NCBI RefSeq assembly: GCF_009749405.1
Contig: NZ_WBIQ01000006.1
Span: 1 to 64,000 of the forward strand
DNA length: 64,000 nucleotides
Direction of reading: 5' to 3'
From: Agromyces lapidis
Lineage (GTDB): Bacteria > Actinomycetota > Actinomycetes > Actinomycetales > Microbacteriaceae
Numbering within the stretch: the stretch's first letter is position 1; every line of letters begins with the position of its first letter. A program made the position numbers and the translations under genes. The notes beneath the pieces are model-generated. The model searched no databases, was not told the origin of the DNA, and saw nothing but the letters and a program-made list of their open reading frames with translations. Positions 20,522-58,500 of this stretch are shown here, in pieces.

Positions 20522-20594
20522 GGCCCCATCGTTTAGCGGCCTAGGACACCGCCCTCTCACGGCGGCAGCGCGGGTTCAAATCCCGCTGGGGTCA
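20522..20594 (+). tRNA. tRNA-Glu (anticodon CTC), copy 1
   Basis: 73-nt cloverleaf: acceptor GGCCCCA pairs with TGGGGTC; anticodon stem CCGCC/GGCGG with loop CTCTCAC gives anticodon CTC at 20556-20558 (reads GAG); T-arm GCGGG-TTCAAAT-CCCGC. The discriminator A at 20594 is followed by an encoded CCA (20595-20597). Confidence 0.95.
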
Positions 20595-20618
20595 CCACTG
20601 TGAAACACGACAACAGAT

Positions 20619-20676: not shown

Positions 20677-20749
20677 GGCCCCATCGTTTAGCGGCCTAGG
20701 ACACCGCCCTCTCACGGCGGCAGCGCGGGTTCAAATCCCGCTGGGGTCA
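20677..20749 (+). tRNA. tRNA-Glu (anticodon CTC), copy 2
   Basis: Identical in sequence to copy 1 over all 73 nt, 155 bp downstream, anticodon CTC at 20711-20713. Unlike copy 1 it has no encoded CCA: the bases after discriminator A20749 are CGA, so CCA must be added after transcription. Confidence 0.95.
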
Positions 20750-20768
20750 CGACCGTGCTTCGCAGCAG

Positions 20769-23840: not shown

Positions 23841-25062
23841 GTATCGCGCAGAGGCGAGCGGTGCCGTCGCGGCCGTGCGACCGGGGGCCGCGCTGCTGGT
23901 CTCCGGTGCATCGGCGGCGACCGTGGCCGCAGAATTGTGGGCCGTGCTCGCGCCCGATGCGACGACGGCGGTGCTCGAGCGGCTCACGGCCGACGGGCTC
24001 GGCCGCACCCCCGATTTCGCACTCCTGACGTGGCAGCCGGCCGGCGAGGGCCTCGGCGGCGTCCGCATCATCGTGCGCGGTGCGTTCGAGGTCGTCGCCG
24101 GCGAGGTCGTCGTGTCGGGCGCGGCCGTCTCGACCTGGGCCGAACGGTTCGTCGACGACGCCGAGCGCGTCGAGATCGCACATGCGGATGCCACGGGGGT
24201 CGCCTCGTGGCTGCCGATCGTCGACGGCGTGGTGGCTGCGGCGGCCGTCGTCGTGCCGGGCGCGTCGCCGACCGGCGAGGCCGTCGCTCCGAAGCCCATG
24301 GAGACCTCGGCCCCCGAACCCGTGGCGCCGGCGATCTCCGGGGCGGCGATCCCCGCGGCGCCGGCGATCCCCGTGGCGGAGGCCGACGACGCCGAGACGC
24401 TCGCGGTCACGGAGCACACGATCGCGCCGATCGACGAAGAGACCATCGTCGGGGTGACCGATTTCATCCGCCCGCCCGAGGCGACCGGGGTTCCGCCCGT
24501 GGCCGCTCCGACGGCGCCGAACGTCGTGCCGGCCGCCGCCATCGTCGGCGACCTCGACGAGACCATCGCGCGGCCGATCGGCGAGGGCGCGTCCGCGCCC
24601 TTCGCCCCCGGCGACCACGACGGCATGACCGTCGCGAGCGCCGACATCCGGCGCCTGCGGGCGGAGCGCGAGGCATCCCGCCCCGCGTCGACGCCCGACG
24701 CCCCGGCAACGGCGACGGATTCGCCGGGGGTGCGCGTGCGCATGCCCGACGGCAGCTTCGAACCGCTCGGCCACGAGATCGTGCTCGGCCGCTCGCCGAG
24801 CGTCAGCAAGGTCTCGGGCGGCCGCCTGCCGAGGCTCGTCACGATCGGGCACGGCGATCCCGACATCTCGCGCAGTCACGTGCGCCTCGCGCTCGAAGGC
24901 GGCACGGTCGTCGTCACCGACCTGCACTCGCGCAACGGCACGCTCGTGGTCGCCCCCGGCCGCGCGCCGGTGAAGCTCCGCGCCGGCGAGCCGACGCCCG
25001 TGCTCATCGGCACCGTCGTCGACCTCGGCGGCGGCTGGACGATCCAGGTGGTGGGCGACTGA
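23833..25062 (+). CDS. FHA domain protein with an unrecognised N-terminal domain
   Basis: 409 residues. An N-terminal domain of about 130 residues (starts MAEYRAEASGAVAAVRPGAA) that I do not recognise is followed by an Ala/Pro-rich linker with several DxxTI and EETIV-type Thr sites, possible kinase targets (DEETIVGVTDF, DLDETIARPIG). The C-terminal FHA domain (about residues 296-405) has the phosphothreonine-binding core LGRSP, ISRSHVRLALEG and DLHSRNGT. The TI-containing motifs resemble phospho-sites that FHA proteins present to each other. It overlaps the phosphatase and shares one base with the kinase start. Likely role: phospho-dependent adaptor. Confidence 0.85.
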   Translation: MAEYRAEASGAVAAVRPGAALLVSGASAATVAAELWAVLAPDATTAVLERLTADGLGRTPDFALLTWQPAGEGLGGVRIIVRGAFEVVAGEVVVSGAAVSTWAERFVDDAERVEIAHADATGVASWLPIVDGVVAAAAVVVPGASPTGEAVAPKPMETSAPEPVAPAISGAAIPAAPAIPVAEADDAETLAVTEHTIAPIDEETIVGVTDFIRPPEATGVPPVAAPTAPNVVPAAAIVGDLDETIARPIGEGASAPFAPGDHDGMTVASADIRRLRAEREASRPASTPDAPATATDSPGVRVRMPDGSFEPLGHEIVLGRSPSVSKVSGGRLPRLVTIGHGDPDISRSHVRLALEGGTVVVTDLHSRNGTLVVAPGRAPVKLRAGEPTPVLIGTVVDLGGGWTIQVVGD

Positions 25063-26720
25063 TGCGGCGCGCCACCTCGACACCGCCCGAGCTTCCGGGA
25101 TACAACTCGCTCGGCCTGCTCGGCTCGGGCGGCTTCGCCGACGTCTTCCTCTACGAGCAGCGCCTGCCGCGCCGCAAGGTCGCCGTCAAGGTGCTGCTCA
25201 CCGAAGAGCTCGGCCGCGACACCCGCGCCCAGTTCGTCGCCGAGGCGAACCTCATGGCGCAGCTCTCGGCGCACCCGTTCATCGTCACCATCTTCCACGC
25301 CGACGTCTCGGCCGACGGACGCCCGTACTTCGTCATGGAGTACTGCTCGGGCCCGAGCCTCGCCGAGCGCTACAAGCGCGAGCCGTTCTCGGTCGAAGAC
25401 GCGCTGCGCACCGGCGTGCGGCTCGCCGGCGCGATCGCCACCGCGCACGCCGCCGGCATCCTGCACCGCGACATCAAGCCCGCCAACGTGCTCACGAACG
25501 ACTACGGCTGGCCCGCGCTCACCGACTTCGGCATCTCGTCGAACCTCGAGGGCGAGCTTCCGGTGCATACCGTCACGGTGGCCGAGCTCGGTGCGACCGG
25601 TTCGGCGTCGGGCACCGGGCAGTCGGCGGTCGGGCTCAGCGTGCCGTGGTCGCCGCCAGAGATGTTCGACGACGACCCGAAGCCCGACCCGCGCAGCGAC
25701 GTCTTCTCGCTCGCGGCGACGGTGCACACGCTGCTCGCCGGGCGCACCCCGTTCGAGATCCCCGGGCGTTCCAACGGTTCTCTCGACCTCATGGGGCGCA
25801 TCGAGCGCGGTGCGATCACGCCGATCGGCCGCACCGATGTGCCCGCGAGCCTCGCCGCCGTGCTGGCGAAGGGCATGGCGACCCGTCGCGACGACCGCTA
25901 TCCGAGTGCGGTCGAGTTCGCCCGCGCCCTCCAACGCGTCGAGCTCGAGCTCGGCTATGCCGCGACGAACATCGAGGTGCCGAACCTCGCCGCCGAGCGC
26001 GAGGCGCAGTCGGGTGACGACGACGGCGCCGACGCGACGCGGGCCCGTTCGGTCACGACCGTCGCCGCGCAGGCCCCCGTCGCGCCGGCGGCCGCGCCCG
26101 TGGCACCCCCACCGGTCGTGCCGCCGCCCGTCGACGACGACCGAACCCTCGCCCGCTCGCCGCAGCAGGTCGCCGCGCAGCCTCCGGCGCCCGTGGTCGA
26201 CGATGCGACCATGCTCCGCACGCGTGGCCCGGCTGTGGCCGACGCCACGGTCGTCCGGCCGGCAGGTGCGACCGCTGCCTCCGCCACGACGTCGGTGCCG
26301 ACCGAGACCCGGGCGCCTCGGCGCTCGCGCGTCGGCGTGATCGTCGCCTCGGTCGCCGCGGTCGTGGTCGTCGCCGTCGTCGGCATCGCGATCGCTCTCT
26401 CGGGCACCTTGACCGCGCCCGAACCAGAGGTCGAGTCGCCGACCGGCGGCGAAGATGCGGTGATCGAGGCGACGGTGCCGGCACCGACGGTCGAGTTCGC
26501 GGGCCTCGACGGCACGTCCGCCGTCTTCGACGTGGCGCACGACGACGCCGAGGACGGCGACCGCTATCGCTGGAAGCGCGTCGACGGCTCGGGCTCGACC
26601 GAGGTCACCGAGGGCCCGACGATCACCGTCGCGAACGGCGCGGGGGGTGTCGTCTGCATCGACGTCGAGGTGCAGCGCGGCAGCAAGACTTCCGAACCGG
26701 TGAGGGGATGCTCCGGATGA
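25062..26720 (+). CDS. Transmembrane Ser/Thr protein kinase (PknB-like)
   Basis: 552 residues. The kinase domain (about 14-290) has the glycine loop GLLGSGGFADVF, Lys43 in VAVKVLL, HRDIKPAN with catalytic Asp137, and DFG at 155. The activation segment is rich in Thr/Ser, and the APE motif reads PPE (WSPPEMF). A Pro/Ala linker holding DRTLARS and DATMLRT sites leads to one membrane helix (about 423-447) and a roughly 100-residue outside domain, beta-rich, with a Cys pair (VVCIDVEV, VRGCSG) resembling an FN3/Ig fold rather than PASTA repeats. It therefore probably senses something at the surface, possibly the giant proteins from the same operon. Confidence 0.93.
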   Translation: MRRATSTPPELPGYNSLGLLGSGGFADVFLYEQRLPRRKVAVKVLLTEELGRDTRAQFVAEANLMAQLSAHPFIVTIFHADVSADGRPYFVMEYCSGPSLAERYKREPFSVEDALRTGVRLAGAIATAHAAGILHRDIKPANVLTNDYGWPALTDFGISSNLEGELPVHTVTVAELGATGSASGTGQSAVGLSVPWSPPEMFDDDPKPDPRSDVFSLAATVHTLLAGRTPFEIPGRSNGSLDLMGRIERGAITPIGRTDVPASLAAVLAKGMATRRDDRYPSAVEFARALQRVELELGYAATNIEVPNLAAEREAQSGDDDGADATRARSVTTVAAQAPVAPAAAPVAPPPVVPPPVDDDRTLARSPQQVAAQPPAPVVDDATMLRTRGPAVADATVVRPAGATAASATTSVPTETRAPRRSRVGVIVASVAAVVVVAVVGIAIALSGTLTAPEPEVESPTGGEDAVIEATVPAPTVEFAGLDGTSAVFDVAHDDAEDGDRYRWKRVDGSGSTEVTEGPTITVANGAGGVVCIDVEVQRGSKTSEPVRGCSG

Positions 26721-27430
26721 GGCCACTGCGAGTCGAATACTGCGGGGAGTGGTACACGGTCGAGGCGGGGGAGCCGTTCACGATCGGCCGCGACTCCGAC
26801 CTCACGATCGACGAGAACCCGTACCTGCACCGCACCTTCCTGACGCTGTCGTCGGAGTACGGCCTGTGGTGGCTCTCGAACGTCGGGCAGCTGCTCTCGG
26901 CGACCGTGTCGGACGCCACCGGCAGCGTGCAGGCCTGGGTCGCTCCGGGGGCGAAGCTGCCCCTCGTGTTCCAGACCGTGCACGTCATGTTCAGCGCCGG
27001 CGCGACGACCTACGACTTCACCGTGCACGCCGAGGAGGACTTCTACAACACCTCGCTCACGGCGACGCCCGCCGACGGCGGCACCACGGTGATGCCGGTC
27101 ACCCTCACGACGAGTCAGCGGCTGCTCGTGGTCGCGCTCGCCGAGCACCTGCTCGCCCAGCCGACGGCCGGGCGAGCGACGGTGCCCTCGTCGGCCGAGG
27201 CCGCGGCCCGCCTCGGCTGGAGCATGACGACCTTCAACCGCAAGCTCGACAACGTCTGCGAGAAGCTCGACCGCATCGGCGTCGACGGACTGCGCGGCGG
27301 ACGGGGCAAGCTCGCCACGAACCGTCGCGCCCGCCTCGTCGAGTACGCCGTGGCGACCCGCCTCGTGAGCGCCGACGACCTGCCGATGCTCGATCGCGCG
27401 GCCGACGACGCCGAAGACGCCCGCACGTGA
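26717..27430 (+). CDS. FHA-like/helix-turn-helix protein of the kinase operon
   Basis: 237 residues. The N-terminal 100 residues look like a divergent FHA domain (EPFTIGRDSDLTIDENPYLH, then RTFLTLSSEYGLWWLSNVGQ), with the usual Ser-x-x-His replaced by NPYLHR. The C-terminal half contains a helix-turn-helix-like stretch, SSAEAAARLGWSMTTFNRKL, followed by DNVCEKLDRIGV and a basic tail GGRGKLATNRRAR. DNA binding is plausible, giving a phospho-responsive regulator, but a protein-binding role is equally open. I choose ATG 26717 (overlaps the kinase stop, AGGGG upstream) over ATG 26708. Its own stop overlaps the first giant gene by GTGA. Confidence 0.7.
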   Translation: MRPLRVEYCGEWYTVEAGEPFTIGRDSDLTIDENPYLHRTFLTLSSEYGLWWLSNVGQLLSATVSDATGSVQAWVAPGAKLPLVFQTVHVMFSAGATTYDFTVHAEEDFYNTSLTATPADGGTTVMPVTLTTSQRLLVVALAEHLLAQPTAGRATVPSSAEAAARLGWSMTTFNRKLDNVCEKLDRIGVDGLRGGRGKLATNRRARLVEYAVATRLVSADDLPMLDRAADDAEDART

Positions 27431-30400
27431 TCCCATCGCCTCGGAGCGGGCGGACTCGCTCCGTGGCATCCATCGCCGCGATCGCCCTGCTCGCCGCGAT
27501 CCCGTTCGGCATCGCCGTGCTGCACGACGGGTTCCCCGTCACCGACGTCGACCTCGACGCGCGGACCGTTTGGGTGACGAACGGCGACGCCCTGCTCGCC
27601 GGACGGCTTTCGAAGCCCATCGCCGAGCTCGACGGCGCGGTGAACACCGCGTCTCGCAGCACCGAGGTCTACCAGCACGGCGACGACGTCTTCCTCTACG
27701 ACGGCGAGGCCGGCGCGATCGAGCGGGTCGACCCGTCGTTCACGACGCTCGTCGAGCGCACCGAGCTGCCGCCGGGCTCGAGCGTCGCCTACGGCGGTGA
27801 CTTCCTGGCCGTCGCGTCGCCCGAGGGCGAGGTCTGGATCCTCGACGCGGCCGCGCCGCTCGCTTTCGATCCCGGTTCGGCGCCGCCGATCGTCGAGGCC
27901 GGCACGGGAGCGCAGCTCGCGGTGACGGGCGAGGGCACCGTGTTCGTGAGCTCGCCGCGCGAGGGCGCGCTCTTCAGGATCGGGGCCGGCGCCGCGGCAT
28001 CCGAACGCACCGAACTGCCCGAACTCGGCGAGCACCGGCTCGCCGCAGTGGGCGAGCACGCCGTCGTGCTCGACCTCGAGCGCAACCGTCTGATCACCGA
28101 CCGGGCGACGGTCGAGCTGCCCGCTGCGGCGCTCGAACTGCAGCAGAGCGGGCCCGACGACGCGGCAGCGCTCGTGGCGACCGGAACCGGGCTCCTCGAG
28201 GTGCCGCTCGCGGGCGGCGAGGTGCGACGCATCGACGTGGGGATCACGGGCGAGCTGACCGACCCCGACGACGTCTCCGCGCCGGTGCGAGTCGACGGAT
28301 GCGCGCACGGGGCATGGGCCGGCGCCGGTCGCTACGCGGTCGCCTGCGGCGACGGCGAGGCCCGGACGGTCGAACTCGACCGAGTGACGCACAACGTCGA
28401 ACTCGAATTCCGCGTCAATCGCAGCGTGATCGCCCTCAACGACCTCACGAGCGGCAACGCCTGGCTGCTCGACTCCGAGCTGCGGCTCGTCGACGACTGG
28501 GAGCAGGCGACACCGCCCGAAGACGAGGAGACCGAGGACGGCGACGAGGAATCGCAGACCCAGTCCTTCGAGGACACCCTCGCCGAACGCACGGAGGAGA
28601 ACCGCGCCCCGCTCGCCCGCGACGACGTCTTCGGCGTGCGCCCCGGAGTGACGACCATCATCCCGGTCCTCGACAACGACTCCGATCCCGACGGCGACGT
28701 GCTCACCATCGCCTCGACGGGCGAGGTGCCCGGGTCGCGAGGGGTGCTCGAGACGATCGACGGCGGGCGGGCGCTCCAGTTCACGCCGGCCGACGGCATG
28801 CAGGGCTCCGTGAGCTTCCGCTACTCGGCGAGCGACGGCCGCCCCGGCGGCGTTGCCGAAGCGCAGGTCGACCTCGCCGTGCGACCGCTCGAGCAGAACA
28901 CGGCGCCGGCATCGCTGCGGAATACGGCGATCAGCGTGGAGCAGGGGCAGCGCGCCTCGTACAACGTGCTGCGCGACTGGCGCGATCCTGACGGCGACGC
29001 CGTCTTCCTCGTCTCGGCGACGCCGAAGGGCGACGACGCGGTCAGCTTCGCGCCCGACGGGGAACTCACCTTCACGCACACGTCGGGCGAGCTCGGCGAG
29101 AAGGAGATCGCCTTCGTCGTCTCGGACGGCGTCGACCAGTCCACCGGCACCCTCGCGATCGAGGTGAAGCCGCACGGGGAGCTGCACCCGGTGGGCACCC
29201 CCGACTTCGCGACGACCTTCACCGGCGAGACCGTGCTCATCGAGCCGCTCGCGAACGACCAGAGCCCCGGGGGCGAACCGCTCGCGCTCCTCGGCCTCGA
29301 CGAGGTGCCCGACGACGCCGAGGTCGTCCCGAACCTCGAACGCGGCACCATCGGCTTCACCGCAGCCGCGGCCGGCAGCTACACCGTGCTGTACCAGCTC
29401 GGCGCCGGCTCGAGCTCGAGCGTCGGGCTCATCCGCGTCGACGTCGAGGAGCGGCCGGCTGAGCCGCTCGCGCCGATCGCCGTGACCGATCTCGCCTACC
29501 TGCGCGCCGGCGAGCCCGTCTCGGTGCCCGTGCTCGCGAACGACGTCTCGCCGAGCGGCGACGTGCTCGCGGTGCAGGCGGTCGACACGCAGGAGGTCGA
29601 GGGGAGGCTCACGGTCGAGGTGCTGACGAATGCGGTCGTGCGGATCACCCCGTCGTCGGCGCTCACCGAACAGCTGCAGCTCGAGGTGACGATCAGCGAC
29701 GGACGGGAGAGCACGACCTCGGGACTCACCGTCGTGCCGGTGCCGCCGCTCGTCAAGCACCAACCGCCCATCGCGGTCGACGACGAAGTGCGCGTGCGGG
29801 CCGGCGACATCGTGACCGTGCCCGTGCTCGACAACGACTCCCACCCCGACCATGCGCCCCTGGCCGTCGAGCCCGAGCTCGTCGACGACGCCTCAGCCGG
29901 AGGGCTCGCGTTCGTCAGCGGCAACACGGTGCGGTATCAGGCGCCCGACGAGCCCGGCGTGTACTCGGTCGACTACCGGCTCACGGATCCCTCCCGCGAG
30001 ACCGCCGTCGCCTCGGTGCGATTCACCGTCGTGGGCCGTGGGGCGGAGAACGCCGCGCCGAGCGCGCGGCCGCTGACGACCAGGACGTTCGCCGACTCGT
30101 CGGTGAAGGTCGACGTGCCGCTCGACGGTCTCGACCCCGACGGCGACTCCGTCGCCCTCCGCGGGGTCACCTCGACGCCGAAGCTCGGACGCATCGTCGC
30201 GACCGACACCGGCAGCATCGAGTACGAGTCGTACCCGGGCATGTCGGGCACCGACAGCTTCCAGTACGAGGTGGAGGACGCGCTCGGCGAACGGGCCACC
30301 GGAACCATCCGCGTCGGGGTGATTCCTCGGGCGGGCACGGACTCCCCGCCGAACGCGGTCGACGACACGGTCGAGATCCTGCCCCGACGAGTCGCCTCCG

Positions 30401-32676
30401 TGCCGGTGTGGCGCAACGACTCCGACCCGAACGGCTACCGGCTCGAGGTCGACGAGGAGCTCGTCGAGGTCGACGAGGGCATCGAGGCCGAGGTCGACGA
30501 CGATCGCGTCGTCGTCGAGGCGCCCGACGAGGAGGGGGCGTTCACGATCCGCTATCGGATCGACAACGGGCACGGCGGCGTCGACACGGCGTTCCTGCAG
30601 GTGCTCGTGACCGAGGACGCCCGGCCGGTGCCCCCGAGCTCGGTCGACCAGTTCGTCGCCGTGGAGGACGTCGTCGACGGACGCGCTGCGGACGTGGACG
30701 TGCTCGAGGGCGCGGAGAATCCCGGCGGGCGCGTCGGCGACCTCGTCGTCTCGCTCGAGGGGCGGGGCACGGATGCCGCGGAGTTGCTGCCGGACGGCGA
30801 GGTCCGCGTGCGCGCCGGCGACGCGCGCCGAGCGATCGCCTACCGGCTCACGAACGAGGTCGACGGCCTCTCGACGACTTCGTTCATCATCGTGCCGCCC
30901 GCGCCCGACGGTGCGAGCGAGGCCCGGCCCGCACCGCCGTACCTCGCGGAGCTGCCGCCGCAGCAGACGTCGCTCGACACCCCGATCGAGTGGTCGATCC
31001 ACGACCTCGTCGTCGTGCCGTCGGGACATCCGCCGCTCGTGCTCTCGGCCTCGGCGACGAACGGCGACGGCTCCGAGGTCAAGGTCGACGGCGAGACCCT
31101 GCGGTTCACGCCGGCGAAGGGGTATCGGGGACCGGCCTCGGTGAGCTTCGCGGTGACCGACGGCACCTCCGAGTCCGACCCCGACGGCGTCTCGGCGCTG
31201 CTCACGATCCCGGTGACCGTCGGCGATCCCGATCTCGCCGACGTCGCCCCGACGTTCACCGCGCAGACCGTGACGATCGAGGCGGGCGAGGAACCGCTCA
31301 CGATCGACCTGCGCGACTCGGCCTCCCACCCCAACCCCGAGCTCGCCGACCGGATCGCGTTCGGCGGGCTTTCGGGCTCGACGAGCGAGGTGAAGGCGGG
31401 GCTCGCGGGCTCCGAGCTCACCGTCATGGCGCCCCGCGGGGTGCAGCCGGGTACGACCGCGACCCTCGAGTTCGACGTGTCGCTCGGCGAGTTCGTCGTG
31501 CCGGGTGAGGTCGTCGTGGTCGTGGCATCCTCGACCCGGCCGCCGGCGCGTACCGCCGACGACCCGAACGACGCGGAGCAGCGCACCTTCCGCCCGTCGC
31601 AGACGATCGAGCTCGACGTCCTCGCCAACGACTTCAATCCCTTCGCGGCCGAGGGCGAGCCGCTGCGCGTCGTCGGCGCCGTGCTCGACCGATCCGGGGT
31701 GGGGGAGTCCGCCGACATCGCGTTCACCGACGACACGGTGACGATCCGCACGGGGCCGGGCGCGACCGGCACGCTGAGCGCGGTCTACACGGTGCAGGAC
31801 GCGACCCGCGATCGCACGAGGCAGGTGCAGGGGCGCGTCGTCCTCTCGATCGTCGACGTCCCCGATCGCCCGCGGGCGCCCGGAGCGAGCGAAGGCGACG
31901 GCCTGGCGACGGTCACCGTCGAATCGACGGCGTCGAACAACTCGCCGATCCTCGACTACACGATCTCGTGGCCGGGCGGGCAGCTGACGGTTCCGCGCGA
32001 GGGCAGCTACACGGTGAGCGGGCTCCGGAACGGCACCGACTACGCGTTCCGGGTGACCGCTCGCAATGCCGTCGGCAGCTCGACCCCTTCGCCCGAGAGC
32101 GTCGCGGTCCGTCCGTACGGCGTACCGGGAGCGCCCGCGAGCGCGAGCCTCAGTGCGACCACGAACGGTACGGGGGACATGACGCTCAGCTGGTCGCCGC
32201 CCGCGAACGACGGCGGTCGCGGCATCGGCGAGTACCGCTGGCGGCAGGTCGGAGCGGGGAACTCCAGCTCGACGACGGCGACGGCGGTGAACTTCCGGAT
32301 GGGCGTGGGCACGCAGTACACGTTCGAGGTGCAGGCCTGCAACGCGCGCGGATGCGGCGGATGGACCCGCTCCAACCCCGCGACGCCGACCGCGCCCCCG
32401 CCGTGGACGCCGACGCACTACTCGACGACGATCACGCAGTCGACGTGCCCCGAACCCGGATCGGCGTATCCCGACGGGCCGTGGAACGGGGACAGCGGGT
32501 GCTCGTTCAAGCCGCAGGGCGCGCTGGCGCCGGGCACGGTGATCGACGCGTGGTGCTACTCGCAGCGCAACGGCGAGCACTGGCTGTACTTCACCTCCGA
32601 GAGCGGCGCCTACGACGGCTGGTTCGTCTCCGCTGCAGACACGAGTCGACCCGGACGCTCGCTCCCCGACTGCTGA
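27427..32676 (+). CDS. Giant Ig/cadherin-like repeat surface protein 1
   Basis: 1749 residues. An N-terminal signal anchor (about 12-32) exports a beta-propeller-like head (about 35-360; blades such as GDDVFLYDGEAGAIERVDPS). A very acidic linker (about 361-390, ending SFEDTLAER) leads to eleven Ig/cadherin-like repeats of about 95 residues, several with the calcium-binding style VLDNDSDPDGDVL. Then two FN3-like domains (about 1480-1665) and an 85-residue tip with Cys pairs (TITQSTCPEPGS, DSGCSF, DAWCYS, LPDC). There is no LPXTG or C-terminal helix, so it is held by the N-terminal anchor. GTG 27427 overlaps the previous stop. An adhesin, wall spacer or kinase ligand are possibilities. Confidence 0.85.
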   Translation: MIPSPRSGRTRSVASIAAIALLAAIPFGIAVLHDGFPVTDVDLDARTVWVTNGDALLAGRLSKPIAELDGAVNTASRSTEVYQHGDDVFLYDGEAGAIERVDPSFTTLVERTELPPGSSVAYGGDFLAVASPEGEVWILDAAAPLAFDPGSAPPIVEAGTGAQLAVTGEGTVFVSSPREGALFRIGAGAAASERTELPELGEHRLAAVGEHAVVLDLERNRLITDRATVELPAAALELQQSGPDDAAALVATGTGLLEVPLAGGEVRRIDVGITGELTDPDDVSAPVRVDGCAHGAWAGAGRYAVACGDGEARTVELDRVTHNVELEFRVNRSVIALNDLTSGNAWLLDSELRLVDDWEQATPPEDEETEDGDEESQTQSFEDTLAERTEENRAPLARDDVFGVRPGVTTIIPVLDNDSDPDGDVLTIASTGEVPGSRGVLETIDGGRALQFTPADGMQGSVSFRYSASDGRPGGVAEAQVDLAVRPLEQNTAPASLRNTAISVEQGQRASYNVLRDWRDPDGDAVFLVSATPKGDDAVSFAPDGELTFTHTSGELGEKEIAFVVSDGVDQSTGTLAIEVKPHGELHPVGTPDFATTFTGETVLIEPLANDQSPGGEPLALLGLDEVPDDAEVVPNLERGTIGFTAAAAGSYTVLYQLGAGSSSSVGLIRVDVEERPAEPLAPIAVTDLAYLRAGEPVSVPVLANDVSPSGDVLAVQAVDTQEVEGRLTVEVLTNAVVRITPSSALTEQLQLEVTISDGRESTTSGLTVVPVPPLVKHQPPIAVDDEVRVRAGDIVTVPVLDNDSHPDHAPLAVEPELVDDASAGGLAFVSGNTVRYQAPDEPGVYSVDYRLTDPSRETAVASVRFTVVGRGAENAAPSARPLTTRTFADSSVKVDVPLDGLDPDGDSVALRGVTSTPKLGRIVATDTGSIEYESYPGMSGTDSFQYEVEDALGERATGTIRVGVIPRAGTDSPPNAVDDTVEILPRRVASVPVWRNDSDPNGYRLEVDEELVEVDEGIEAEVDDDRVVVEAPDEEGAFTIRYRIDNGHGGVDTAFLQVLVTEDARPVPPSSVDQFVAVEDVVDGRAADVDVLEGAENPGGRVGDLVVSLEGRGTDAAELLPDGEVRVRAGDARRAIAYRLTNEVDGLSTTSFIIVPPAPDGASEARPAPPYLAELPPQQTSLDTPIEWSIHDLVVVPSGHPPLVLSASATNGDGSEVKVDGETLRFTPAKGYRGPASVSFAVTDGTSESDPDGVSALLTIPVTVGDPDLADVAPTFTAQTVTIEAGEEPLTIDLRDSASHPNPELADRIAFGGLSGSTSEVKAGLAGSELTVMAPRGVQPGTTATLEFDVSLGEFVVPGEVVVVVASSTRPPARTADDPNDAEQRTFRPSQTIELDVLANDFNPFAAEGEPLRVVGAVLDRSGVGESADIAFTDDTVTIRTGPGATGTLSAVYTVQDATRDRTRQVQGRVVLSIVDVPDRPRAPGASEGDGLATVTVESTASNNSPILDYTISWPGGQLTVPREGSYTVSGLRNGTDYAFRVTARNAVGSSTPSPESVAVRPYGVPGAPASASLSATTNGTGDMTLSWSPPANDGGRGIGEYRWRQVGAGNSSSTTATAVNFRMGVGTQYTFEVQACNARGCGGWTRSNPATPTAPPPWTPTHYSTTITQSTCPEPGSAYPDGPWNGDSGCSFKPQGALAPGTVIDAWCYSQRNGEHWLYFTSESGAYDGWFVSAADTSRPGRSLPDC

Positions 32677-32704
32677 CGGCGGATTCGATGGGGATGACTC
32701 CCCA

Positions 32705-32734
32705 TGTGACGTCGTCGCGAGCCCGTGTTAGCGT
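32705..32734 (+). promoter_or_regulatory. Weak candidate promoter in the gap before the second giant gene
   Basis: The 115-bp gap 32677-32791 is the only sizeable non-coding gap in the operon. It holds TGTGAC (32705-32710) and TAGCGT (32729-32734) with an 18-bp spacer, and a CCCC-GTTGT-GGGG mini-hairpin at 32738-32750. An internal promoter for the second giant gene and the MoxR set is possible but unproven. Confidence 0.3.
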
Positions 32735-32791
32735 GTACCCCGTTGTGGGGCCTGGTCGCCCCGAAGAAGCCGTCGTGATATCCGGGGAGCA

Positions 32792-35700
32792 GTGGTGGGA
32801 ACCTTCGCTTCGTGGGTCCGTACGCGCAAGGCCACCGCGACCACGCTCGCGCTGACGCTGCTCGCCGGTGTTCCGCTCACCTTCGCCGTCCTCCACCAGG
32901 GCTTCCCGGTCACCGATCCCGACCTCAGGGCGCGCGACGTGTGGGTGACGAACGCGAAAGACCTGCTCGCCGGGCGCCTGAACCGGCCGATCGGTGAACT
33001 CGACGCCGCGGTCAGCACGGCCACCAACGAGTTCGACGTGTTCCAGAACGGCGACGATGCGTTCCTCTACGACCGCAGCATCGGTTCGCTCGAGCGCATC
33101 GACCCGTCGTTCACGACGCTGACCGAGCGCATCGACGTCCCGCCGGGGTCGACGGTCGCCTACGGCGGCGAGGTGCTCGCCGTGCTCTCGCCGAAGGGCG
33201 AATTGTGGACGGTGCTCGCCGGGTCGGCACTGTCGTTCGACGCCGCAGGCACCGACCCGCTCCTGAAGCTGGGCGAGGGAGCCCAGGTCGCCGTCTCGAG
33301 CACTGGCACCGTCTTCGCGACGAAGCCCGCCAAGGGCGCGCTGTACACGATCGCGATCGACCAGGAGCCGGTGAAGCGCGAGGTCCCGAAGCTCGAGCAG
33401 CACCAGCTCGCCGCGGTCGGAGAGCGCGCGGTCATCCTCGACGAGAAGAAGAACCGAGTGATCGCCGACGGCACGACCGTCGAACTGCCCGACACGGGCC
33501 TCCGGCTCCAGCAGTCGGGCGCCGAGCACGATGCGGTGCTCGTCGCGGGCGCAGAGGCACTCTTCGAGGTCCCGCTCGGGGGCGGCGCGGTCACTTCGAT
33601 CCCGAACGGTGGAGACGCCCCGGCCGCGAAGGCGAGCGAGGTCGCTGCGCCCGTCTGGCTCGAGGGGTGCGCCCACGGCGCCTGGTCGACTTCGGCGCGT
33701 TATCTCGCGGTCTGCGACGGCGCAGAGCCGCGTTCGCAGGCGATCGAGCAGCGCACCGCCGGTGCTCGACTCGAATTCCGCGTGAACCGTGACGTGATCG
33801 TGCTCAACAACCTCTCGAACGGCAACGCCTGGCTGGTCGACTCCGACCTCAGGCTCGTCGACAACTGGGAGGAGGTGACGCCGCCCGAGGAGTCGGAGGA
33901 CGAGGAGGGCGACGAGAAGAGCTCCCAGCAGAACTTCGAGGACACCCTCGCCGAGCGCGGCCCGATCAACCGGCCGCCGCTCGCCCGTGACGACGAGTAC
34001 GGCGTGCGCCCCGAGCGCACGACCATCCTCGAGGTGCTCGAGAACGACACCGACCCCGACGGAGATGTGCTCACCGTGGCCGAGCTGCCGACGGCGAGCG
34101 GGGCGGCTGGGCGACTCGAGCTCATCGACGGCGGCCGCGCGCTGCAGTTCACGCCCGAGAAGGGGGCGGCGGGCACCGCGTCGTTCCGCTACACCGTCGA
34201 CGACGGACGCGGGGGCAAGGCCGAGGCATCCGTCAACGTGCGCATCAGGCCCGCGAGCGAGAACGAGGCGCCCGTCTCGATGCGCAACGGCGCCACGAGC
34301 GTCGAGCAGAGCCGGCAGATCTCGTACAACGTGCTCGCCGACTGGAACGATCCAGACGGCGATGACGTCTACCTCGTGAACGCGTCGCCGACGAGCGGCG
34401 ACTCGGTGCGCTTCAGCCCCGACGGGCTCGTGACCTTCGCGCACCAGTCGGGCGAGCTGGGCGCGAAAGAGGTGCAGTACATCGTCTCCGACGGGCAGAC
34501 CGAGGCCGCCGGCACGCTCACCGTCGAGGTGAAGCCGAGCGGCACGCTGAACCCCGTCGGCACGCCCGACTTCGCACAGGTGTTCGCGGGCGAGTCGGTC
34601 TCGATCGAACCGCTCGCGAACGACCTGACGCCGTCGGGAGCGCCCCTGACGCTCATCGGCCTCGAAGAGGTGCCCGACGGGCCGACGGTCACCCCGAACC
34701 TCGAGCGCGGCACGATCACCTTCTCCGCCGGCGAGCCAGGCGAGTACGTCTTCCTCTACAACCTCGCCGCTGACACGGCGGTGAGCGTCGGGCTCATCCG
34801 CGTGCAGGTGAACGAGCCGCCCGCCGAGGCGCCGGCGCCGATCGCCGTGAAGGACACGGCCTACCTCCGGCCCGGCGAGCCCACCACGGTGCCGCTGCTC
34901 GCCAACGACGTGTCGCCGTCGGGCCGCGTGCTGGCCGTGCAGTCGGTCGACGACTCGGCGACCGACGACCTCGTCTCGGTCGAGATCCTCACGAACACCG
35001 TGGCGCGCGTCACCGCCTCCGAGGCGATCGACCGGCAGCTCCAGTTCACGTACACGATCTCCGACGGCGTGAACACCGCGACGGCATCGGTCGCCGTCGT
35101 GCCGGTGCCGCCCCTCGTGAAGCACCAGCCTCCCGTCGCGGCCGACGACAGCGTCAATGTGCGGGCCGGCGACATCGTGACCGTGCCGGTGCTCGACAAC
35201 GACTACCATCCCGACGCCGCCGCCATCCACGTGCTGCCCGAACTCGCGAACACGAACGCCGAGGGTGGACTCGCGTTCGTGAGCGAAGACGAGGTGCGTT
35301 TCCAGGCGCCGAAGACTCCGGGCACGTACAGCACCGTCTACACGGTCGGCGACGACTTCGAGCAGACCGCCCGCGCGACCGTGCGGTTCACGGTGATCGG
35401 CCCCGACCCCGAGAACAACCGGGCGCCGCTGCCGACCCCGCTCACCTCGCGCACCTTCGAGGGCTCCGCAGTCAAGATCGACGTGCCGCTCGACGGCATC
35501 GACCCCGACGGCGACTCGGTCGTGCTCACCGGAATCTCGTCGGCGCCGGCCCTCGGCCGCATCATCGAGCGCACGAGCACCTCGATCACCTACGAGGCGC
35601 TGACCGGGTCGGCCGGCACCGACACGTTCAAGTACGAGGTCCAGGACACGGGCGGGGCGAAGTCGACCGGCACCGTGCGCATCGGCGTGATCCCGCGGCC

Positions 35701-38110
35701 CGCCGTGCAGCTGCCGCCGAAGGCGGTCGACGACACGATCGAGATGAAGCCCGGCCGCACCGTCGGCGTCGAGGTGCTGCTCAACGACTCCGACCCCTCT
35801 GGCTACCAGTTGCACGTCGCCGACCTGCCCGACGTCGACGACGGCATCGAGGCCGAGATCCGCGACCGTCGCAGGGTCGTCGTGACGGCGCCCGAGACGG
35901 AGGGCGCGTACACGCTGCGCTACGAGATCTCGAACGGCCACGGTGGCGCAGATGCCGCCTTCCTGCAGATCGCCGTGTCGAAGGACGCGAAGATCCTGCC
36001 GCCGACCGCCGAAGACCAGGTCATCGAGCCCGAAGCGGTCGTCGACGTCGACCGGGTCAACGTGCGACCGCTGAACGACGCGACCAATCCGGGCGGTCTC
36101 GTCGAAGACCTGAAGGTCGCGGTCGAGGGGCCGAACGCCGACCGTGCCGAGGTGCTGAGCGACGGCAGTATCGACGTGAAGCCCGGTCGCGAACGCTTCG
36201 CCGTCGCGTTCCGCCTGACGAACGAGCTCGACGAACTCGACGCGAAGGCCTTCGTGATCGTGCCGCCGATCCCCGGTGGCGACGACGTCGCCGAGGAGAC
36301 GCAGCGACCGAAGACCCCTGAAGAGCTCGCGGCCGAAGAGAAGGCGAAGTTCCCGGCGCCGCACCTCGCCGATCTCGGTGAGATCGTCGTGCCGATGAAC
36401 GGCAGCATCACGTGGAACGCGAACGACATCGTCGTCGTGCCCTCGGGTCAGCCGCCCCTCATCCTCTCGGCTTCGGCGACCAACGCCGGGGAGTCGCCGT
36501 TCGTCGACGGCCAGACCCTGCAGTACGTGCCCGAGCAGGACTACCGTGGTTCGGCCGCGGTGACCTTCGAGGTCACCGACGGCAAGAGCGCCGACGACCC
36601 GATCGGGCGCAAGGCGATCCTCACGATCCCGATCACCGTCGGCGACCCGAACTTCAACGACACACCGCCGACGTTCACCCCGCGCACCGAGACGATCGAA
36701 GCGGGCGAGGCGCCGCTGCAGGTCGACCTCCGCTCCTCGACCTTCCAGCCGAACCCCGACAACGTCGAGCGGGTCGAATACACGAACCTCGCCGGCACGA
36801 CGAACGACATCCAGGCCTCGATCGACGGCGGCACGCTCACCGTGACGTCCCCCCGCGGCGTGCAGCCCGGCACCGAGACGAGGCTGAGCTTCGACCTCAA
36901 GTTCGAGTCGTTCACCGTGCCCGGGTACGTCGACGTGAAGGTCGTCTCATCGACGCGCGTCAAGCCGGCGGCGAACCCCGACGGACCGATCGAGATGACG
37001 CGCAGCGATTCGCAGCCGATCGACGTGCTCGCGAACGACTTCAACCCGTTCAACGCCGAGGGCGAGAAGCTGCGCGTGGTGGCCGCTGAGATCAACTCGG
37101 CGGATGTCGGTTCGAACGCCTCTGTGAGCTTCACCGAGTCCGGAATCACGGTGCGCACCGGCGCCTCCTTCACGGGCGAGCTCAGTGTCATCTACCGCAT
37201 CGGCGACGCGACACTCGACGAGTCGCGTGAGGTGCAGGGGCTGGTGAGGGTGATCGTGCGCGACCGACCCGATGCGCCGACGATCACGGGTACTGTGAGC
37301 GGTGACGGCAACGTCAGGCTGAGCTGGCGAGCGAACGCCACGAACAATTCGCCCATCACGGGATACATCGTGTCGTCGCAGCCCGCGGCCGGCGGTCCGT
37401 GGAACTTCGGAGAGTCGGCAGCGGGCACGCCGCAGACCATCAGCGGGCTCGCAAATGGGACGGCCTACACCTTCACGGTGCGAGCGGTGAACGACAAGGG
37501 CACGTCCGAGGCGTCGAACAGCGCAACCGAGACGCCGTACGGCACTCCGAGCCAGCCCACGAACCTTCGCACCGGCGGCATCGGTTACGCGCCCGCTGAC
37601 GTCACGGTCGCGTGGGATCCGCCGAACAGCACCGGTGGCGGCGCCGTGCAGTTCCGCAGCCGCATCAGCGGCGGGAGCTGGTCGGGCTGGTCGAACGCGC
37701 AGTCGAGGACCTTCAACAACCTCGGTGCCGGCGGATATACGGTCGAGGTCGAAGCGCGCAACAACGGCAGCCAGAAGGTCGGCCCGGCGAACTCGATCCG
37801 CTTCAGCGTCGAGAACCGCCCGCCGCCTCCGAAGACGGTGTCCCTGTCGAAGGGGACGAGGGTCGGCTACTACAACGGCCAGTACGGGTATTGCGGTGGC
37901 GACTGCTGGCACTACAACGTCAGCGTCTCGAACTTCCCCGACGGCACTGCTTCCGGCTACGCCTACTGCAACGGGTCACGCCTGAATACGAACATCCGGA
38001 TCTCCGTCAGCGGCGGGAGCGGAAGTTACGCCGGCAAGTTCCCGGACTCGTGGTGCGGGCACAGCAACGCGTACGTGATCATCGACGGCGTCCAGAGCAA
38101 CAACTGGTGA
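32792..38110 (+). CDS. Giant Ig/cadherin-like repeat surface protein 2
   Basis: 1772 residues, a colinear paralog of the preceding gene: signal anchor (about 14-34), beta-propeller-like head with the same landmarks (NGDDAFLYDRSIGSLERIDP), acidic linker ending NFEDTLAER, eleven Ig/cadherin-like repeats (LENDTDPDGDVL and similar), two FN3-like domains, and a different roughly 90-residue C-terminal module with CGGDCWHYNVSVSNF, YCNGSRL and DSWCGHSNAY. Each repeat resembles the repeat at the same position in protein 1 more than its own neighbours, so the whole gene was duplicated and the tips diverged. GTG 32795, better spaced from GGGGAG, is an alternative start. Confidence 0.85.
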   Translation: MVGTFASWVRTRKATATTLALTLLAGVPLTFAVLHQGFPVTDPDLRARDVWVTNAKDLLAGRLNRPIGELDAAVSTATNEFDVFQNGDDAFLYDRSIGSLERIDPSFTTLTERIDVPPGSTVAYGGEVLAVLSPKGELWTVLAGSALSFDAAGTDPLLKLGEGAQVAVSSTGTVFATKPAKGALYTIAIDQEPVKREVPKLEQHQLAAVGERAVILDEKKNRVIADGTTVELPDTGLRLQQSGAEHDAVLVAGAEALFEVPLGGGAVTSIPNGGDAPAAKASEVAAPVWLEGCAHGAWSTSARYLAVCDGAEPRSQAIEQRTAGARLEFRVNRDVIVLNNLSNGNAWLVDSDLRLVDNWEEVTPPEESEDEEGDEKSSQQNFEDTLAERGPINRPPLARDDEYGVRPERTTILEVLENDTDPDGDVLTVAELPTASGAAGRLELIDGGRALQFTPEKGAAGTASFRYTVDDGRGGKAEASVNVRIRPASENEAPVSMRNGATSVEQSRQISYNVLADWNDPDGDDVYLVNASPTSGDSVRFSPDGLVTFAHQSGELGAKEVQYIVSDGQTEAAGTLTVEVKPSGTLNPVGTPDFAQVFAGESVSIEPLANDLTPSGAPLTLIGLEEVPDGPTVTPNLERGTITFSAGEPGEYVFLYNLAADTAVSVGLIRVQVNEPPAEAPAPIAVKDTAYLRPGEPTTVPLLANDVSPSGRVLAVQSVDDSATDDLVSVEILTNTVARVTASEAIDRQLQFTYTISDGVNTATASVAVVPVPPLVKHQPPVAADDSVNVRAGDIVTVPVLDNDYHPDAAAIHVLPELANTNAEGGLAFVSEDEVRFQAPKTPGTYSTVYTVGDDFEQTARATVRFTVIGPDPENNRAPLPTPLTSRTFEGSAVKIDVPLDGIDPDGDSVVLTGISSAPALGRIIERTSTSITYEALTGSAGTDTFKYEVQDTGGAKSTGTVRIGVIPRPAVQLPPKAVDDTIEMKPGRTVGVEVLLNDSDPSGYQLHVADLPDVDDGIEAEIRDRRRVVVTAPETEGAYTLRYEISNGHGGADAAFLQIAVSKDAKILPPTAEDQVIEPEAVVDVDRVNVRPLNDATNPGGLVEDLKVAVEGPNADRAEVLSDGSIDVKPGRERFAVAFRLTNELDELDAKAFVIVPPIPGGDDVAEETQRPKTPEELAAEEKAKFPAPHLADLGEIVVPMNGSITWNANDIVVVPSGQPPLILSASATNAGESPFVDGQTLQYVPEQDYRGSAAVTFEVTDGKSADDPIGRKAILTIPITVGDPNFNDTPPTFTPRTETIEAGEAPLQVDLRSSTFQPNPDNVERVEYTNLAGTTNDIQASIDGGTLTVTSPRGVQPGTETRLSFDLKFESFTVPGYVDVKVVSSTRVKPAANPDGPIEMTRSDSQPIDVLANDFNPFNAEGEKLRVVAAEINSADVGSNASVSFTESGITVRTGASFTGELSVIYRIGDATLDESREVQGLVRVIVRDRPDAPTITGTVSGDGNVRLSWRANATNNSPITGYIVSSQPAAGGPWNFGESAAGTPQTISGLANGTAYTFTVRAVNDKGTSEASNSATETPYGTPSQPTNLRTGGIGYAPADVTVAWDPPNSTGGGAVQFRSRISGGSWSGWSNAQSRTFNNLGAGGYTVEVEARNNGSQKVGPANSIRFSVENRPPPPKTVSLSKGTRVGYYNGQYGYCGGDCWHYNVSVSNFPDGTASGYAYCNGSRLNTNIRISVSGGSGSYAGKFPDSWCGHSNAYVIIDGVQSNNW

Positions 38111-38138: not shown

Positions 38139-39107
38139 ATGTCAGTGACCCAAGAACAGGCCCTGTGGTTCCAGGACGCCTTCTCGAAGCTCGTCGACAA
38201 CGTCGACCGTGCGATCCTCGGCAAGCGCGAGGTCATCGAGCTCGTCGTGACGGCGCTGCTCTCCGACGGCCACGTGCTGCTCGAGGACTTCCCGGGCACC
38301 GGCAAGACCGTGCTCGCGAAGGCGCTGGCGAACACCCTCGACGGCACGAACTCGCGAATCCAGTTCACGCCCGACCTGCTGCCCTCCGATGTCACGGGCG
38401 TCACGATCTACGACCAGGGCAAGGCCCAGTTCGAGTTCCACCGCGGCCCGATCTTCGCCTCCATCGTGCTCGCCGACGAGATCAACCGTGCGAGCCCGAA
38501 GACGCAGTCCTCGCTCCTCGAGGTCATGGAGGAGGGCAAGGTCACCGTCGACGGCGTGAGCTACGACGTGGGCAGCCCCTTCATGGTCATCGCGACGCAG
38601 AACCCCGTCGAGCAGGCGGGCACCTACTCGCTGCCCGAGGCCCAGCTCGACCGGTTCCTCATCAAGACCTCGCTCGGCTACCCCGACCACGACACGGCCG
38701 TCACGCTGCTGCTCGACTCGGCCAACCGCGCGCGTGCCTCGAAGGTGTCGCCGATCATCGCGCCGAGCTCGATCACCACGATGTCGCAGCTCGCGAGCGA
38801 GGTGTACGTCGACGCGGCGGTGCTCTCGTACCTGAACGAGATCGTCTCGGCGACGCGCAGCGACAAGGACGCGGCGCTCGGCGTCAGCATGCGCGGCGCG
38901 CTCGCCCTCGCGCGTGCGGTCAAGACCCGCGCGATCTCGAACGGCCGCACCTTCGCGACGCCCGACGACGTGCGCGACCTGGCCGTGCCCGTGCTCGCCC
39001 ACCGCATCATCGTCGACCCCGAGTCGGAGTTCGCGGGCGTCTCCGCCCAGGACATCGTGAACCGGGTGCTCGCCGAGGTGGCACCCCCGGCGTACCGGGC
39101 GGCATGA
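38139..39107 (+). CDS. MoxR-family AAA+ ATPase (giant-protein operon)
   Basis: 322-residue MoxR ATPase. Walker A is DFPGTGKTVLAKALA, followed by the family-specific FTPDLLPSDVTGVTIYDQ, Walker B VLADEINRASPKTQ, sensor 1 IATQNPVEQAGTYSLPEAQL with DRF, and the C-terminal lid GVSMRGALALARAVK. MoxR proteins act as chaperone-like remodellers for partner proteins, usually those with VWA or DUF58 domains. The next gene is DUF58, so the pair probably forms the working unit for maturation of an exported or membrane product here. ATG 38139 is preceded by GAAGGA. The stop overlaps the DUF58 start by 4 bases. Confidence 0.93.
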   Translation: MSVTQEQALWFQDAFSKLVDNVDRAILGKREVIELVVTALLSDGHVLLEDFPGTGKTVLAKALANTLDGTNSRIQFTPDLLPSDVTGVTIYDQGKAQFEFHRGPIFASIVLADEINRASPKTQSSLLEVMEEGKVTVDGVSYDVGSPFMVIATQNPVEQAGTYSLPEAQLDRFLIKTSLGYPDHDTAVTLLLDSANRARASKVSPIIAPSSITTMSQLASEVYVDAAVLSYLNEIVSATRSDKDAALGVSMRGALALARAVKTRAISNGRTFATPDDVRDLAVPVLAHRIIVDPESEFAGVSAQDIVNRVLAEVAPPAYRAA

Positions 39108-40402
39108 CCGCCGAGTCCGGCGCGCCCCAGACCCCGTCTCAGGCGCGCATCGCAGTCCGCGCCGTCGCACGCTCGCTCGGGGCATCCCTGCGTTCGCTGG
39201 GCGCGACGCTCGCGCGCGCCTGGCGCACCGTCGCCGAGTTCTGCGCGCCCGTCACGGGCGTGGTCTCCACGACCGGATGGCTCGTGCTCGGCGCCGCGGC
39301 GGCGTCGCTCGTGCTGGCGTGGGTGTTCGGCTGGATCGAGTTCGCGTTCCTCGGCTTCACCCTGCTCGCGGCCGTGCTCGTGTCGATCGCCTTCGTCTTC
39401 GGCCGGATGCACTTCACCGTCGGCATCGAGCTGCAGCCGACCCGCGTCGTGGCGGGGGAGCGCGCGCTCGGTCGCATGGTCGTCCGCAATGCGGGCACCT
39501 CGCCGTCGGCGCCCGCGCGTATCGAGCTGCCGGTCGGCGCCGGCCTCGCCGAGTTCGTCGTGCCCCACCTCGCCCCCGACGCCGAGCACGAGGAGCTCTT
39601 CGCCGTGCCGACCAACCGGCGCGCCGTGATCATCGCGGGGCCCGCCGTCTCGGTCCGCGGCGACCAGCTCGGCATCCTGCGACGCACCGTGCGCTGGACC
39701 GACCCCGTCGAGCTCTTCGTGCACCCGGTGACCGCTCGGCTGCGGCCGTCGGCCGCCGGCCTCGTGCGCGACCTCGAGGGCGAGGTCACGAAGGTCATCA
39801 CGAACAACGACATCGCGTTCCACGCGCTGCGCGCATACGAGCCGGGTGATCCCCTCCGCAACGTGCACTGGCGCACCTCGGCCCGCACCGGTCAGCTCAT
39901 GGTGCGTCAGTACGAAGAGACCCGCCGTTCGCAGCTGACGCTCGTGCAGTCGACCGAGCGCGCGCACTACGCCTCCGACGACGAGTTCGAGCTCGGCGTG
40001 TCGGTGCTCGCCTCGATCGGCGTGCAGGTCGTCCGCGACGCGACGCGACTTTCGGTCGTCACCGAGGGCGTCGCGCTGCGCACGGCGACCCCGACCGTCC
40101 TCCTCGACGACTCGTCCCGCATCGAGCCGGCCGACGGCGCATACCCGTCGATGCGCGACTTCGTGCGCGACGCGACGAAGCGGCTGCCGACCCCGAGCGT
40201 CGTCATCGCGGTCGGAGGCTCCCTGCTGCCGATCGCCGAGTTCCGTTCGGTCGAGACCGTCTTCGGCAATGACACCGAGACGATCGCGATCCGCGTGGAG
40301 CTCGGCGCCACGAGCTCGCTCACCAAGGTCGCCGGCACGACGGTCGCGACCATCGGCTCGCTCGGCGACCTGCCCCGCCTGATGAGGAGGGTGCGACCGT
40401 GA
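39104..40402 (+). CDS. DUF58 domain membrane protein (giant-protein operon)
   Basis: 432 residues. Two adjacent membrane helices (about 55-100: VLGAAAASLVLAWVFGWIEF then AFLGFTLLAAVLVSIAFVFG) are followed by a beta-rich part and the DUF58 core, ALRAYEPGDPLRNVHWRTSA with RTGQLMVRQYEETRR, a VWA-like module without a full MIDAS. This is the standard partner of a MoxR ATPase. The C-terminal VIAVGGSLLPIAEFRS region is also VWA-like. It is coupled by ATGA to moxR and by GTGA to the transglutaminase-fold gene. Function of DUF58 proteins is not defined biochemically. Confidence 0.88.
   Translation: MTAESGAPQTPSQARIAVRAVARSLGASLRSLGATLARAWRTVAEFCAPVTGVVSTTGWLVLGAAAASLVLAWVFGWIEFAFLGFTLLAAVLVSIAFVFGRMHFTVGIELQPTRVVAGERALGRMVVRNAGTSPSAPARIELPVGAGLAEFVVPHLAPDAEHEELFAVPTNRRAVIIAGPAVSVRGDQLGILRRTVRWTDPVELFVHPVTARLRPSAAGLVRDLEGEVTKVITNNDIAFHALRAYEPGDPLRNVHWRTSARTGQLMVRQYEETRRSQLTLVQSTERAHYASDDEFELGVSVLASIGVQVVRDATRLSVVTEGVALRTATPTVLLDDSSRIEPADGAYPSMRDFVRDATKRLPTPSVVIAVGGSLLPIAEFRSVETVFGNDTETIAIRVELGATSSLTKVAGTTVATIGSLGDLPRLMRRVRP

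Positions 40403-57472: not shown

Positions 57473-58500
<1,028 letters not shown>

Follow-up and report, generated by a model that had tools for sequence, protein, structure and literature searches.

Two giant proteins, A and B, are encoded in tandem in the stretch of Agromyces lapidis DNA analysed here (the window: 64,000 nucleotides, positions 1 to 64,000 of the forward strand of contig NZ_WBIQ01000006.1, assembly GCF_009749405.1), and they follow one plan almost to the C-terminus, where they differ. The question raised by this locus is what such proteins are and how two closely similar stalks came to carry different ends. In our reading, A and B are probably surface receptors or adhesins of the PFNA FN3 family, studied until now in Bifidobacterium, and their tips appear to be exchangeable. 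Replacement localised to the distal end, with reassortment of the second FN3 domain (FN3-2) and the tip, was shown by comparison within the genus, and the membership of the giants in the family, their architecture and the colinearity of their repeats were likewise established by computation.

Common plan and predicted structure of the giants

A first-pass annotation, made from the DNA letters and their open reading frames, had described both giants as an anchor followed by a propeller-like head, an acidic linker ending in FEDTLAER, eleven Ig/cadherin-like repeats and an FN3 pair. This plan was borne out in each of its parts. The alignment of A with B runs end to end as far as the FN3 pair, with heads that are 53% identical and an 18-residue indel ahead of repeat 9, and FEDTLAER is present in both proteins. 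The head is propeller-like by prediction: in the model of the B head (mean predicted local distance difference test score (pLDDT) 92.1), a helix at residues 2-28 is followed by a nearly all-beta domain that matches beta-propellers, among them cytochrome cd1 nitrite reductase (VIA; Z 21.2, 303 residues, root-mean-square deviation (rmsd) 3.5 Å), with designed eight-bladed propellers at Z 19-20. By sequence, the head gave weak matches alone in the PDB (best E 0.027). Helix 2-28 of the model is the predicted N-terminal membrane helix of the giants, and because this anchor is N-terminal, the propeller would lie beside the membrane and the C-terminus would be outermost.

The model of the C-terminal 287 residues of B (pLDDT 93.9) shows two FN3 domains (residues 4-194, Z about 15) and then a third beta domain, the tip, which is predicted with high confidence to be ordered and all-beta. 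Chains of three FN3 domains align with this model over residues 5..287 at an rmsd of 10-17 Å, a comparison by which the part after residue 194 is barely tested, and it is these three-domain matches alone that suggest an FN3-like fold for the third domain. In Pfam, two FN3 stretches pass in A and one in B; neither window tip had a match at E 1, and sub-threshold matches were obtained for some of six other tips. Against PDB sequences, the tip class of A (class III, see below) had no match up to E 5, and that of B (class II) had weak matches alone, with a best E of 0.035. Judged by eye, the A tip might be SH3-like in fold, which is a guess.

The eleven-repeat stalk

Both giants contain eleven repeats, and the one-to-one correspondence claimed for them was confirmed: for each of the 11 A repeats, the top-scoring B repeat is the one at its own position. 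Same-position repeats are 47-63% identical, against a mean of 27% between repeats inside A and 26% inside B. In a tree of 66 repeats taken from six proteins with 11 repeats each (A, B, the giant of a second locus in the same genome, one Bifidobacterium protein and two from other families), the repeats were arranged by position and not by protein: position required 10 changes, which is the least possible number and was reached in none of 200 shuffles, and protein required 55. Ten of the 11 positions form one side of a branch, and position 7 needs two changes. When the B repeats were compared with 11 wider relatives, Bifidobacterium and the second locus included, their own position was found for 9 to 11 of the 11 repeats.

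Judged by these alignments, the stalk has kept its repeat number and order throughout a bacterial order. The colinear, non-homogenised repeats had been taken as the trace of a duplication that produced A and B. Because the position-specific stalk of eleven repeats is present in all 11 wider relatives aligned, its colinearity neither proves nor dates such a duplication, and this argument had to be given up.

Copy number and tip classes

A giant of the window type was found in 53 of the 60 genus genomes (E below 1e-140), as one copy in 40, two in 12 and three in one; the single-copy count may miss neighbours, since some genus loci lie at contig ends (e.g. L062, L070, L081, L089). The sole giant of one genome, at L108 in G029, is a 515-residue fragment. 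In the stalk tree, which comprised 79 of 83 giants (both copies of L117, the L118 giant and the L108 fragment were excluded), B belongs to a starred clade of six, three rows of which come from one-copy loci, and A groups with G024, G043 and G004 in a four-member starred clade that is separate from the remaining 62 genus rows. B is the core copy; A, the accessory one, bears a tip of a conserved class that is not homologous to the B tip. Tandems have separate origins elsewhere, the two copies of L097, three of L111 and two of L116 each being mutually nearest, and at L060 and L112 the giant is repeated along with the MoxR, DUF58 and transglutaminase-like (TG) genes. In the nearest relative, G024 (L059, 3191-8014 on), the A copy is broken: its frame stops after the tenth repeat region, and the class III tip is encoded separately, in a frame of its own.

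For 78 giants (L059 copy 1, which is truncated, being excluded as well), the final 95 or so residues were sorted into class I with 31 members, class II with 23, among them B, class III with 10, among them A, class IV with five, and small groups holding the other nine. Comparison of the class profiles gave probabilities of 97.4% for I-II, 97.6% for I-IV and 40% for II-IV, and class III is unrelated to I, II or IV (0.1-0.2%). That the last 85-90 residues of A and B differ had been noticed from the sequence; the two tips are indeed unrelated (III against II, 0.1%), and the differing part proved to be larger than described, with FN3-2 also falling in different clusters.

Class III tips occur in 11 of the 60 genus genomes, all of them multi-copy, and always at the end of a giant, except for the separate frame in G024. 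They belong to the upstream copy in 9 of the 11 loci and to the downstream copy in L068 and L069; the two remaining multi-copy genomes, G035 and G049, have none. The tip of window A is 81% and 79% identical to those of L084 and L086, on stalks that are 66% and 67% identical. From comparisons of this kind, it appears that the accessory copy retains its tip and that the core copy changes its tip. The tips retain class-specific cysteines and cores. In class I (L064, L078, L083 and others), a short loop varies over a constant core and there are often two adjacent cysteines; a tryptophan is the last residue of most class I and II tips.

Two special origins of the tip were considered. A tblastn search with both window tips returned nothing at E 0.01 in 50,697 phage records, and a phage-derived domain was rejected on this basis. 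As to a polymorphic toxin, no small gene in the immunity position follows A or B in the neighbourhood, the only place inspected; B and the MoxR gene are what follow.

Probable exchange of the distal modules

Pair statistics were collected for 65 genus proteins, again without the truncated L059 copy 1. Stalks are at least 80% identical in 121 genus pairs, of which 71 have tips less than 45% identical and 32 have FN3-2 domains less than 50% identical. The two modules also vary separately, FN3-2 being at least 60% identical with a tip below 45% in 29 of these pairs and below 50% with a tip of at least 60% in seven. The two main FN3-2 clusters and tip classes I and II are found in all four combinations (23, 17, 5 and 3), and in 34 genus pairs, tips at least 75% identical are carried on stalks less than 72% identical.

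Window B and G024 B have stalks that are 94% identical, followed by FN3-2 and a tip with 23-46% identity per 30-residue block; in the DNA, identity is 47-52% over the last 600 bp and 88-99% in the next gene, moxR. Seven pairs were profiled at the DNA level, and five, window/G024 among them, lose DNA identity at the end, whereas it never drops to that level in the two same-tip contrast pairs, L066/L067 and L101/L103. The loss being a true one, a frameshift was excluded as the cause of tip differences for these seven pairs. The ectodomain of the neighbouring kinase follows the stalk in G024 (88% identical), not the tip, and co-variation of this ectodomain with tips was not seen for that genome. 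At a greater distance, the ten class III giants are spread over three stalk clades, and forcing them together costs 165 log units (approximately unbiased (AU) test, p 7.8e-7) in a test of a grouping seen beforehand, performed with 36 chosen rows and a quick tree without a mixture model.

Because the tips of B orthologues change and the A tip class is found on three clades, exchange of distal modules fits the data better than divergence in place. The earlier proposal of whole-gene duplication followed by specialisation of the tip therefore stands in part: A and B are paralogues on the same plan with a specialised distal end, but tips and FN3-2 change among close B orthologues without any duplication.

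Several observations weigh against exchange. Tips partly track descent, with 20 changes against a shuffled mean of 30.8 (9 against 16.9 for FN3-2), and some of the differences between tips of the same class could be due to very rapid divergence in situ. No donor cassette is visible, since in the genome of the window B is the sole place with a class II tip and A the sole place with a class III tip; silent cassettes were thus not seen for these two classes, class I not having been searched there. One genome per species was sampled, so that exchange within species is not visible, and in L068 and L069 the place beside moxR is taken by the class III copy instead of the core copy.

Membership in the PFNA FN3 family

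A profile of the head matched 58 of 60 genus, 151 of 199 family and 173 of 297 order genomes, and it matched the Bifidobacterium family (f4) at E 1e-40 to 1e-52. One of the Bifidobacterium heads (L149) is identical to that of B. pseudolongum DSM 20099, and L150 corresponds to a B. criceti record; the L149 head is 29% identical to that of B, and its repeats match best by position in 10 of 11 cases. The gene order at L149-L151 is kinase, giant, MoxR, DUF58, TG and PP2C, which agrees with the PFNA operon of Bifidobacterium, given as pkb2, fn3, aaa-atp, duf58 and tgm in excerpts of PMC8430577, PMC10688814 and PMC12607495. A and B share with its FN3 protein a homologous head and eleven-repeat stalk, an FN3 pair followed by a variable C-terminus, a predicted membrane helix and the core gene order with neighbours in one direction, and on this evidence they are assigned to the same family, which is found across the order.

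In most of the 81 loci compared, some of which end at contig edges, the giant is directly ahead of MoxR, DUF58 and TG; at L157 and L158 these genes precede the giants. The genome of the window itself contains a second, divergent cluster (L118, G000:C5) with PP2C, kinase, giant, MoxR, DUF58 and TG, whose giant is 27% identical to B in the head and agrees with it by position in 11 of 11 repeats. Head relatives were also present in two plasmid records, from Actinomyces oris and Arthrobacter. The FN3 protein is called unique to bifidobacteria in the excerpted text of PMC8430577, which does not fit the relatives with the same neighbours detected here in other families.

For the Bifidobacterium protein, adhesion or binding of a cytokine (TNF-alpha) has been reported in the same three papers, and its C-terminal region is described as its most variable part in an excerpt of PMC12607495. 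The present loci differ in having one to three tandem giants, a short tip of one domain that may belong to any of several classes, evidence of exchange, and additional upstream genes for PP2C, an FHA protein and the 26708-27430 protein. A search of the available literature found no paper on this family or on its tip exchange outside Bifidobacterium.

Palindrome, WXG100-type genes and a candidate regulator

The palindrome before B, for which 0.14 matches were expected at up to two mismatches, hints at a second transcription start there; the A-B gap gave no terminator or sigma-70 match. Of 83 upstream windows, 38 contain a loose form of the pattern, in most cases 104-149 bases ahead of where the aligned head begins; none of the ten class III copies, A included, has it upstream. 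With up to one mismatch, eight sites were found in the genome of the window, against one for a reversed control; in addition to that before B, four lie near small WXG100-like genes, one at an RDD-FHA gene and two in other places (L173, L177, L179, L181, L183, L186 and L187). Pfam confirmed WXG100 for one sequence (L183, E 3e-11; that of L186 is identical), and the others were recognised by size and phmmer. WXG100-type genes are type VII secretion genes.

Perfect sites were present in 42 of the 53 genus genomes with the locus and in none of the seven without it. Excluding sites beside giants, the counts were 38 of 53 against 0 of 7 (hypergeometric 4e-4, with no account taken of relatedness), and the reversed control had no perfect match in all 60 genomes. 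The neighbours were surveyed at one site per genome in 29 of the 42 genomes with a site, in addition to the seven loci listed above: a WXG100-type small gene was found at 15 of these 29 genus loci, a giant at five and neither at nine. In G020, one perfect site is located just after the class III copy and not before a giant, so the palindrome is not exclusive to the core giant. Of the 60 genus genomes, those that encode the 26708-27430 protein are the same 53 that have the locus of the giants. The protein matches Pfam HTH_8 at E 0.044, below the cut-off; that it is a regulator is our guess.

Proposed function and alternatives

In the explanation that we favour, A and B would be single-pass surface proteins held in the membrane by the N-terminal helix, and the fixed eleven-repeat stalk would carry the FN3 pair and the tip outward from a membrane-side propeller. 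The tip, together with FN3-2, would set what is bound, in adhesion or recognition. The end of B would have been swapped from one lineage to another, with homologous recombination in the conserved flanks, the stalk and moxR, as the most likely route, and the kinase, the phosphatase, the FHA proteins, MoxR, DUF58 and the transglutaminase-like protein may regulate or service the stalk.

The tandem position, the same plan and the different tips would also agree with a whole-gene duplication that made A and B, after which the tips diverged in place and the two proteins came to form one heteromeric fibre. However, colinearity is family-wide, close B orthologues already differ in the tip, the A tip has no detectable homology to the B tip, and a single giant is present in 40 of the 53 genomes that carry the locus; we therefore hold this account to be very unlikely, and because a single giant is usual in the genus, a heteromer is no general requirement. 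The companion suggestion of adhesins with different ligands is plausible. A structural role in the cell envelope, with a functionless end left to drift, would explain the strong conservation of stalk and head, but it is hardly credible given that class-specific cysteines and cores are kept, that the same tip is found on distant stalks and that the B tip is predicted to be an ordered beta domain. Limitation of the variation to the outermost modules, with stalk and neighbours conserved, is also what would be seen if the variable end were the target of phages or predators and varied to escape attack, with ligand binding secondary. This is unlikely in our estimation: the A-type tips are more conserved than their stalks (L084 and L086), and the 50,697 phage records hold no tip relative, although the latter result bears on shared tips and not on tips as receptors.

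The palindrome raises a further alternative, in which the giants would be contact sensors, with tip binding relayed via the kinase, the phosphatase and the FHA proteins to a small regulon including the WXG100-type genes. The site before B does also precede such genes (15 of 29 loci, giants 5 of 29), and perfect sites follow the presence of the locus (42 of 53 against 0 of 7, with a control of 0 of 60). Nevertheless, neither neighbour is found at nine of the 29 sites, the seven genomes that lack the locus may be related to one another, Pfam confirms WXG100 for one small protein alone, the tip-to-kinase link is hypothetical and the regulator is a guess, for which reasons we find the sensor rather improbable. 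Similarly little credence is given to its boldest extension, a polymorphic contact-recognition organ in which tip alleles that reassort between species on a stalk of fixed length would be wired through the kinase, the phosphatase, the FHA proteins and the 26708-27430 protein to the palindrome regulon, contact with a given partner would change secretion, A would provide constant and B variable specificity, and the transglutaminase-like protein would be a binding module, not an enzyme.

As receptors or adhesins with exchangeable tips, the giants resemble the RTX adhesins of Gram-negative bacteria, in which a long chain of beta-sandwich repeats carries ligand-binding domains outward (excerpts of PMC7493085 and PMC12077191). 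Compared by architecture, they are not members of that group, having an N-terminal membrane helix, a propeller and a fixed number of eleven repeats. By description and without sequence comparison, there is a possible likeness to TraA of myxobacteria, a polymorphic receptor of the cell surface in which recognition depends on a variable domain (excerpt of PMC6372800). A family studied as a bifidobacterial cytokine-binding protein is now seen across an order of mostly other actinobacteria, and its fixed repeat number and block-replaced end shift the question from which host cytokine is bound to what the tip recognises. The natural exchange of tips on nearly identical stalks in the window and G024 offers a ready-made experiment, and the common palindrome offers a testable link to WXG100-type genes.

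Locus layout and neighbouring genes

All genes of the cluster are on the + strand (Table 1), in the order PP2C, FHA, kinase, 26708 gene, A, B, MoxR, DUF58 and TG. Both giants have GTG starts; the start codon of A overlaps the stop of the 26708-27430 gene by 4 bases, and 115 bp separate A and B.

Table 1 Coordinates of the giant-protein locus in the window
Feature	Position	Strand	Basis or remark
PP2C-type protein phosphatase, upstream cluster member	22968..23840	+	Pfam PP2C_2; conserved order
FHA-domain protein	23935..25062	+	Pfam FHA; conserved order
Ser/Thr protein kinase, C-terminal ectodomain; positional counterpart of Pkb2	25062..26720	+	Pfam Pkinase; conserved order
Conserved protein, candidate regulator	26708..27430	+	FHA-like N-terminal half by eye; weak HTH-like stretch
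Giant A, 1749 aa, accessory copy	27427..32676	+	
A: predicted membrane helix, propeller, acidic linker	27439..28566	+	53% identity to modelled B head
A: eleven Ig/cadherin-like repeats	28603..31860	+	Pfam Big_9; segmentation
A: two FN3 domains	31861..32394	+	
A: class III tip	32395..32673	+	
Palindrome ATGGGGA-N4-TCCCCAT	32688..32705	.	86 bp upstream of B start codon
Giant B, 1772 aa, core copy	32792..38110	+	
B: predicted membrane helix, eight-bladed-like propeller, acidic linker	32807..33934	+	
B: eleven Ig/cadherin-like repeats	33971..37258	+	
B: two FN3 domains	37259..37828	+	
B: class II tip	37829..38107	+	
MoxR AAA+ ATPase	38139..39107	+	Pfam AAA_3, AAA_lid_2
DUF58 protein	39104..40402	+	Pfam DUF58
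Membrane protein, transglutaminase-like core without catalytic cysteine	40399..42717	+	Pfam Transglut_core; active-site columns

The transglutaminase-like protein is treated as a putative enzyme under the name tgm in excerpts of PMC8430577 and PMC6803598. In the alignment of 81 rows, the column of the catalytic cysteine is a gap in eight and contains no cysteine in any of the 73 scorable rows (E 48, D 10, A 8, Q 3, S 3, G 1), and the histidine column has H in seven of 73. The full Cys-His-Asp/Glu set of an active transglutaminase is thus lacking, whereas an unrelated second transglutaminase of the window (60012-62315) retains C, H and E. The absence of this residue speaks against the roles in cross-linking or proteolysis that have been proposed for tgm; no paper on an inactive form of tgm turned up in the literature search.

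This second transglutaminase, of the TgpA type, belongs with a MoxR gene (57469-58500) to a second set of the two genes without a giant. Further large Big_9 repeat proteins without the present head are encoded elsewhere in the genome (C13 ~258-260 kb, C6 ~443-445 kb and C14 ~283-285 kb). Upstream of the cluster, two tRNA-Glu genes with identical anticodons lie side by side (20522-20597 and 20677-20750).

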